Origin: Jhaorihella thermophila | Lineage (GTDB): Bacteria; Pseudomonadota; Alphaproteobacteria; Rhodobacterales; Rhodobacteraceae | Direction of reading: 5' to 3' | Assembly (NCBI RefSeq): GCF_900108275.1 | Contig: NZ_FNVD01000008.1 | Span: 62,001 to 126,000 of the forward strand | DNA: 64,000 nt | Shown: piece by piece, positions 30,613-31,753 of the stretch | How positions within the stretch are numbered: position 1 is the stretch's first letter | Layout: every line of letters starts with the position of its first letter | Position numbers and translations under genes: made by a program | Notes under the pieces: model-generated | Told to the model about the DNA's origin: nothing | Database searches by the model: none | What the model saw: only the letters and a program-made list of their open reading frames with translations

Positions 30613-30651
30613 ACGGCCAGCGGTGGATCGGGCTGATGAGGGCGTGCAAAT

Positions 30652-30678
30652 GGGTATTTGAAACCAGAAAGAAGCAGG
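30652..30678 (-). repeat. Short dispersed repeat, copy G, at the terL/cbb junction
   Basis: GGGTATTTGAAACCAGAAAG continues to AAGCAGG. This is the reverse complement of the arm seen in copy A (CTTCTTTCTGGT..AAATACCC) and nearly identical to copy H at 49365. It lies 40 bases after terL ends and about 55 bases before the first cbb fragment. The position suggests it marked a recombination point, but that is inference. The rest of 30613-30733 is unrecognised. Confidence 0.65.
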
Positions 30679-30733
30679 ATTCGGGCAAGGGCGAGCTTTT
30701 GCCGATGTTCGGGCCGGGGGCAGGTATGCGCGG

Positions 30734-31005
30734 TTTTCGGCCAAGAACTATGGGCGCGCGGTGTATGAGCGTCTGCGCGGCGGGCTCGACTTCACCAAGG
30801 GCGACGAGAACGTCAACTCGCAGCCCTTCATGCGCGGGCGCGACCGCTTCCTGTTCTACCAGGAGGCGATCGACAAGACCGTTGCCGAGACTGGCGAGAA
30901 GAAGGGCCACTACATGAACGTCACCGCGCCGACGGTGGAGGGAATGTTCAAGCGCGCTGAGTTCGGCAAGGAACTGGCGCGCCGATCATCATGTCGGACT
31001 ACCTT
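30734..31005 (+). pseudogene. cbbL: Fragment of RuBisCO large subunit (cbbL), frameshifted
   Basis: About 90 codons of form I RuBisCO, from the [20 protein letters not shown] region to IIMSDYL. They include the active-site stretch [14 protein letters not shown] with the carbamylated lysine and two metal-binding acids still present. The mid-section [20 protein letters not shown] matches form IA enzymes best. A single G is missing near 30977 (ELGAPII becomes out of frame), and Trp of the usual MRWRDR is Gly. Both ends of the gene, including the start and most of the barrel, are absent. It cannot encode a working enzyme. Confidence 0.85.
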
Positions 31006-31009
31006 GCGC

Positions 31010-31598
31010 TCGGCTGCCGCCGAGTTCATGCTGCGTCTGCCCGATGCGCTGGACGACTGGCACGGCATCCCGGGGCTCGACCTCTACCGCGCGCAGGCGG
31101 CGCATCTGGCGGCGCATCCCGACGCGCTCACCGCGCCCATTCGCGCCGAGGAATTCACCGCGCTGGAACTGGCCTGCGTCGGCCTGATCGAGGATGCCCG
31201 CGCCGAGGAACGCGCCATCCACCGCTTCCCCCAGCTGCGCCCCTTCCGGGCGCGGTTCCACGTGGCGACCGGCCCCGGCATGGCCGAACAATTCGACCGC
31301 ATCGCCCGTGCGCTGATCGATCCCGAAAGCGCGCCCGAGGACGAGCGCCTCGCGCCGGCTGCTTCTGGTGCTGACCGATGGCGAGCCGGCGGATATCGAC
31401 ATGCGAGATCCCTTCTACCTGCGCCACGACGCCCGCCACGCGGTCGATACGGCAAAGCGGCAAGGCATGATCCCCTTCTGCCTGACGCTCGATCCCGCGG
31501 CCGATGCCTATGCCCGACGCATCTTCGGCGCACGCAACGTGCAGGTGTTGGAGCGCGTCGAGCGCCTGCCGCAGCTTTACGCGCGCCTCACCGGTTGA
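31010..31598 (+). pseudogene. cbbO: Remnants of cbbO (NorD/CbbO-type vWA protein), internally deleted
   Basis: Two pieces of a RuBisCO-activase-partner (CbbO) or NorD-like gene. The first (31010 to about 31345) reads [27 protein letters not shown] and [17 protein letters not shown]. The second, in another frame (about 31353-31598), is the C-terminus of the von Willebrand A domain: [37 protein letters not shown] and the ending [10 protein letters not shown]. The segment between them, which would hold the metal-binding DxSxS motif, is gone. CbbO rather than NorD is chosen because the cbbL piece is adjacent, and form IA cbbLS is typically followed by cbbQO. Confidence 0.75.
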
Positions 31599-31753
31599 AG
31601 CGTCCGGCCGGTCGCCGAGGCCGCGGCAGGAAAGCGCCGTTCATCACGCGGAACTTGTCGGCAACCTTGCGCGGCGTGTCGGACCGCCCCTGCGCGCGCC
31701 GCCGGCCCATTTCACGCCTCGTCCGGAACTCCGGTGGCCCCGATCCGAAATTC

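Follow-up and report, generated by a model that had tools for sequence, protein, structure and literature searches.

Positions 30732-31615 of this Jhaorihella thermophila sequence are very probably a non-functional remnant of a form I cbbLSQO operon of the Rhodobacteraceae type, apparently placed beside a GTA terminase gene by rearrangement. The fragments yield neither RuBisCO nor an activase; an operon remnant is a well-known kind of object, and the fragment alone is an ordinary pseudogene. All coordinates given here are positions in the window, the whole 64,000-nucleotide stretch of DNA that was analyzed. The locus lies on the contig labeled C33, and CbbL and CbbO residues and codons are numbered as in Cereibacter azotoformans.

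What remains of the operon

Three pieces can be recognized, all on the plus strand. The first, at 30732-31016, corresponds to codons ~172-267 of cbbL, the gene for the form I large subunit. Its length of about 95 codons is close to the roughly 90 estimated in the initial annotation, and the frame shifts by one base just past position 30976, in agreement with the one-base deletion that had been placed near 30977. An open reading frame (ORF) of 332 amino acids at 30761-31759 matches PF00016 (RuBisCO_large) in Pfam with an E value of 2.6e-24 over profile positions 37-108. The best PDB matches of the 74-amino-acid cbbL piece are form I large subunits (top match, 1.5e-32), and at the DNA level the piece shows 84% identity to cbbL of Cereibacter azotoformans across 286 bp and 87-88% identity to two family genomes. 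The Pfam and PDB matches place the stretch that is present in form I; of a full-length large subunit, with its N-terminal domain and complete barrel, codons ~172-267 are all that is left.

The second and third pieces come from cbbO. They lie at 31030-31315 (residues ~234-323; 68% DNA identity to Cereibacter cbbO) and 31345-31615 (residues ~656-743, the stop codon, and a few bases beyond; 71% DNA identity to the Cereibacter cbbO end). Pfam reports no family in either piece taken alone, so their identification as CbbO rests on pairwise matches. To judge from the sequence, the presence of a cbbL piece ahead of them and the colinearity of the cbbO match would favor CbbO rather than NorD. A separate CbbQ/NorQ-like and VWA-like pair is found on contig C29, its members matching the Cereibacter proteins at 54% and 37%.

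The cbbL piece and the two cbbO pieces follow one another in the order and orientation of the Rhodobacteraceae cbbLSQO operon, and this kept order, together with the E values, excludes chance similarity. The set of four genes is no longer complete: cbbS and cbbQ are missing, as are both ends of cbbL, the start of cbbO, and CbbO residues ~324-655. The last of these gaps takes in residue 559 of the Cereibacter protein, site of the DxSxS motif, which we take to be the MIDAS of CbbO. The loss of this metal-site segment and of the cbbL ends had been recognized from the outset, and with it has gone the VWA domain with a complete MIDAS that marks CbbO as an activase adaptor. The name MIDAS is also used for CbbO in PMC4660213; as reported there, it is the site by which CbbO binds RuBisCO, and CbbO MIDAS mutants failed to activate RuBisCO.

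The cbbR-cbbLSQO cluster of Cereibacter azotoformans pORIO1 (NZ_CP089967.1) shares gene order, strand, and the identities given above with the remnant, whereas in the remnant cbbS and cbbQ are gone, cbbL is mostly lost, cbbO lacks its MIDAS part, and invariant residues have changed. Similarly, its two cbbO pieces derive from the CbbO subunit of the RuBisCO activase CbbQO, but there is neither an adjacent CbbQ nor the CbbO segment bearing DxSxS. The initial annotation had also drawn the feature wider, from 30613 to 31753. Recognizable cbb sequence fills only the middle of that interval; 30613-30731 holds a dispersed repeat (described below), and 31616-31753, the spacer between the end of cbbO and the 3' end of a tRNA-Met gene, has no match among the sequences compared.

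Origin of the cbb pieces

How did these pieces come to be in this genome? At an E value of 1e-15 or better, cbbL was found in 51 of the 394 family genomes searched, a sample of the family that includes the present genome. In 14 of the 16 cbbL loci whose surroundings were examined, mostly the best-matching of the 50 other genomes, cbbLS is followed by cbbQ and cbbO, as the initial annotation had supposed to be usual. The best reading of the pieces is the collapse of such an operon. The whole operon would once have been resident in the lineage and, once selection had ceased, would have undergone at least two internal deletions (estimated from Cereibacter spacing at about 2.6 kb and 1.0 kb), been truncated on its 5' side, and acquired small frame changes.

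Collapse and transfer had originally been offered side by side, and in both cases the pieces are what they were said to be, remnants of cbbLS(Q)O. That transfer (by plasmid, conjugation, or GTA packaging) brought them in when they were already fragments, and that they never formed a working operon in this lineage, is a lesser possibility, and an unlikely one. It would fit the scattered distribution of cbbL just described, the presence of the cbb operon on a plasmid in Cereibacter azotoformans ORIO, and the differing nearest relatives of the cbbL and cbbO parts. In trees that were both built on short sequences, the cbbL piece clusters with G155, G112, and G316 (support, 0.979) and the cbbO pieces cluster with G150 (support, 0.893), a difference that makes a mosaic origin possible. 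It would fit, too, that form I cbbL was not found in the congeneric sister genome G001, although at 89% completeness and in 470 contigs this is a weak absence. Against transfer, operon order is kept over ~4.4 kb of Cereibacter sequence (L028, 5128-9534), which is more easily reached by internal deletion of a whole operon. Furthermore, the pair adjoining cbb in Cereibacter, a bicarbonate transporter and a divergent regulator, has homologues on contig C67 (71% and 67%), though a common origin is not proved thereby. An origin of the fragments by GTA packaging in particular was rejected, there being no support for it besides adjacency.

The same remnant was sought elsewhere. It was not found in the sister, and among 100 other genomes, 25 match it somewhat (five with partial cbbL matches, the rest with short ones) and none spans it. 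Of the plasmid records, 116 match, none over 80% of the remnant. The search of the present assembly for a second form I locus or an intact cbbLSQO, which the initial annotation had proposed, found none; when compared with the genome, the Cereibacter cbb region returned the remnant pieces, C29 (cbbQ), C67 (the neighboring transporter gene), and otherwise short matches only. A literature search found no report of the present locus or of a cbbL pseudogene, which is not proof of absence.

The terminase junction and the split GTA cluster

The remnant lies between two conserved blocks. On the left are hemB (23606-24604, minus strand; Pfam ALAD) and mfd (25291-28752, plus strand; TRCF, CarD_TRCF_RID, and UvrB_inter), which ends the block. 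Matches to mfd at 66-88% identity are found in 15 other genomes, and hemB adjoins mfd in 8 of 10 mfd loci, one of the other two being a contig that starts inside mfd. On the right, the tRNA-Met gene (cat anticodon; ARAGORN) at 31754-31829, on the minus strand, points its 3' end towards the remnant and is followed by purM (31939-32985, plus strand; AIRS/AIRS_C), which begins a block that also includes purN (Formyl_trans_N) and rnd (DNA_pol_A_exo1 and HRDC). For purM, identity is 63-83% in 15 other genomes, two of which look like one genome; the order purM-purN-rnd is kept in 11/11 purM loci, and tRNA-Met lies beside purM in 10/11.

Between mfd and the remnant, at 28850-30615 on the plus strand, lies the start of a displaced GTA cluster, consisting of an upstream region, g1 (28989-29333, plus strand), and the terminase gene g2 (29197-30612, plus strand; Terminase_6N/6C). 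This stretch is 81% identical at the DNA level to sister G001. Comparison of the locus with that sister follows another check proposed at the outset: similarity stops at 30615 and restarts at 31753 (G001:C191), in a genome with the completeness given above. The genes hemB, mfd, terL, purM, purN, and rnd, as well as the GTA portal and capsid genes, each align in one frame.

The distance from mfd to purM is 3.2 kb here. Among the five relatives with both blocks on one contig, it is ~35 kb in G106, 33.5 kb in G104, and 6.6 kb in G028, while in G111 purM comes before mfd and in G108 the two are ~200 kb apart on opposite strands. When the sister was compared with relatives, no conserved gene was found after mfd or 3' of tRNA-Met at an E value of 1e-8. 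The variable 3' side of tRNA-Met suggests a breakpoint or an insertion hot spot. By eye, different relatives carry different genes on this side of the tRNA-Met by purM, and IS66-type transposase genes lie there in L190.

Just 3' of the terminase, at 30652-30674 on the plus strand, is an exact copy of a dispersed element, GGGTATTTNNNNCCAGAAAGAAG. The window has two further copies, at 1-23 (minus strand) and 49365-49387 (plus strand), and the genome has 122 exact copies, 61 per strand, compared with 0 for the reversed control. A GC-rich inverted repeat stands directly before many of the 32 copies read by eye, and the element is possibly a 3'-end or terminator-like element of the group. In the literature, a search for GGGTATTT with the family name returned one paper only, on shrimp feeding.

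Could an assembly error have created the junction? Wrong joins at the terminase or at the tRNA might be suspected in a draft assembly of 69 contigs, with a dispersed element sitting at the terL-cbbL junction and with a GTA cluster that is contiguous in relatives such as L036-L038. However, the junctions fall 91-94 kb into a contig of 172 kb, the stretch of the element common to its copies is only about 25-50 bp, the gaps inside the cbb pieces are explicable without a misjoin, and the C48 side of the cluster ends in different sequence. An assembly chimera is very improbable.

Placement by rearrangement also bears on the initial suggestion of a meaningful join between the cbb pieces and the terminase, which found no support. 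Of 350 terminase loci, the best 80 (18 of them with shortened flanks) have neither a cbb piece nor purM in the flanks. Conversely, the 16 cbbL loci (10.7-19.5 kb each, two of them shortened to 10.7 and 14.1 kb by a contig end) contain no mfd, g1, terL, or purM. That the GTA terminase is normally located at mfd/purM was considered and rejected: the best 80 of 350 terminase loci gave one mfd-like match (39%) and one purN match (30%), and both were taken as paralogues. Judging from synteny, g1-g2, cut off from their upstream genes on C19 and from the portal and following genes on C48, would have met the cbb remnant between mfd and tRNA-Met/purM. The adjacency of remnant and terminase seems to be a by-product of rearrangement. 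Displaced blocks having been brought together, no functional link is needed to explain why cbb and terminase lie so near each other, and the connection is circumstantial.

As mentioned, the GTA cluster is found in three places: the pre-g1 genes on C19, g1-g2 on C33, and the portal onward on C48. (The g numbers of the RcGTA-like genes are those we presume to apply and were assigned by order and Pfam.) C19 carries the genes that precede g1 in relatives, with no g1 or terminase after them. C48 carries the portal, prohead protease, capsid, DUF2460, baseplate hub, NlpC/P60, and tail genes up to a 1323-amino-acid GTA_TIM/Rcc01698_C protein. Before its portal gene, at the contig end, are ~550 bp that do not match the terminase side of the relative and do not run into a terminase; by eye only, this sequence has the appearance of an insertion-sequence end.

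The terminase on C33 is the sole match to that terminase in the genome. It resembles the RcGTA-like cluster in being 67-82% identical to the terminase in 80/80 of the relatives' loci (the best 80 of 350), and g1 is 31-89% identical in the 50/80 loci where tblastn detects it. The difference from that cluster, whose head-tail genes are contiguous, is the location of the upstream genes, g1-g2, and the portal onward at three sites. The terminase frame is intact, and from its sequence the protein could still serve the displaced head-tail genes. A search of the literature on split or rearranged GTA clusters, including PMC11409702, turned up no report of the present locus. A second end of a GTA g15-like tail gene (Phage-tail_3 and Rcc01698_C) is found with a DUF2793 protein on C67 (1-18000; L214), where at least 707 bp of the g15-like end are repeated ~16 kb on at 87% identity. 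Between the repeat copies are the bicarbonate transporter homologue and the divergent regulator, of the LysR type, paired as they are beside Cereibacter cbb.

Decay of the form I and apparent breakage of the form II RuBisCO gene

How far has the form I piece decayed? Across 72 codons, it departs at 4 of the 36 positions that are invariant in homologues, as defined on 30 distinct ones (46 rows, identical ones dropped). When each homologue is left out in turn, it shows 0 or 1 such departures. Two of the four are D to G in FTKDDE and W to G in RWRDRF, and the conserved FTKDDE active-site segment, which had been described as intact, has thus been altered. The piece also has 8 residues unseen in homologues, compared with at most 3 for any single homologue. 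The dN/dS ratio has a median of 0.26, versus 0.20 for functional pairs (378 pairs); barely above the functional level, this value means either that the decay is young or that 72 codons are too few to tell. At 0.102, the terminal branch of the piece exceeds those of its three nearest relatives (0.005-0.030), yet branch length was rejected as proof of decay: several functional homologues have terminal branches that are equal or longer, up to 0.23.

It is scarcely credible that the 332-amino-acid ORF is instead a new chimeric gene joining a RuBisCO piece and a CbbO piece in a regulatory or binding role: it is open from a GTG start and holds the cbbL and first CbbO pieces in a shared frame (both CbbO pieces had been called out of frame, which is true of the second, at 31368-31598), but a stretch between these two pieces is out of frame, the second CbbO piece occupies another frame, invariant RuBisCO residues are lost, the same fusion was not found in 100 other genomes or in the sister, and chance often produces long open frames here, with 81 ORFs of at least 60 amino acids overlapping 24000-38000.

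The initial annotation missed the split GTA cluster and a second broken RuBisCO. Apart from the remnant, PF00016 has matches in the genome only on C40, to the two halves of a single form II gene, cbbM. This gene belongs to an operon (L004, 84000-103000) that encodes form II RuBisCO together with FBPase, PRK, transketolase, GAPDH, Pgk, aldolase, and epimerase. Compared with the copy in the sister, which is in one frame across 457 residues, cbbM has a 7-bp deletion at ~94217 of C40 and a 1-nucleotide insertion at ~93398. In the same operon, cbbK has a 1-nucleotide deletion relative to the sister near the gene end, and the cbbP ATG does not share the frame of the remaining gene (the sister contig does not reach cbbP). 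Sequencing error could account for the 1-nucleotide changes, which are located in or close to short runs, but is unlikely to explain the 7-bp deletion. The assembly apparently holds no intact RuBisCO gene that could be found.

Is this genome, then, part-way through losing autotrophy? That is a tentative reading, quite conceivable if short of probable. Of the two RuBisCOs that it would once have had, form I would survive as fragments of less than 900 bp and form II would be more freshly broken (cbbM, cbbP, and cbbK), with the sister keeping form II in one frame; the GTA genes would be scattered over three loci with the large genes open, and the GTA might run from separate transcription units. 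In PMC6052148, the absence of RuBisCO and PRK serves to separate photoheterotrophic from photoautotrophic Rhodobacteraceae. Whether GTA genes have to lie together is a question for which the split cluster offers a natural test; this cluster and the apparent loss of both RuBisCOs are points for specialist follow-up. If true, a fossil form I and a recently broken form II would be direct evidence of RuBisCO loss and of the order in which it took place.
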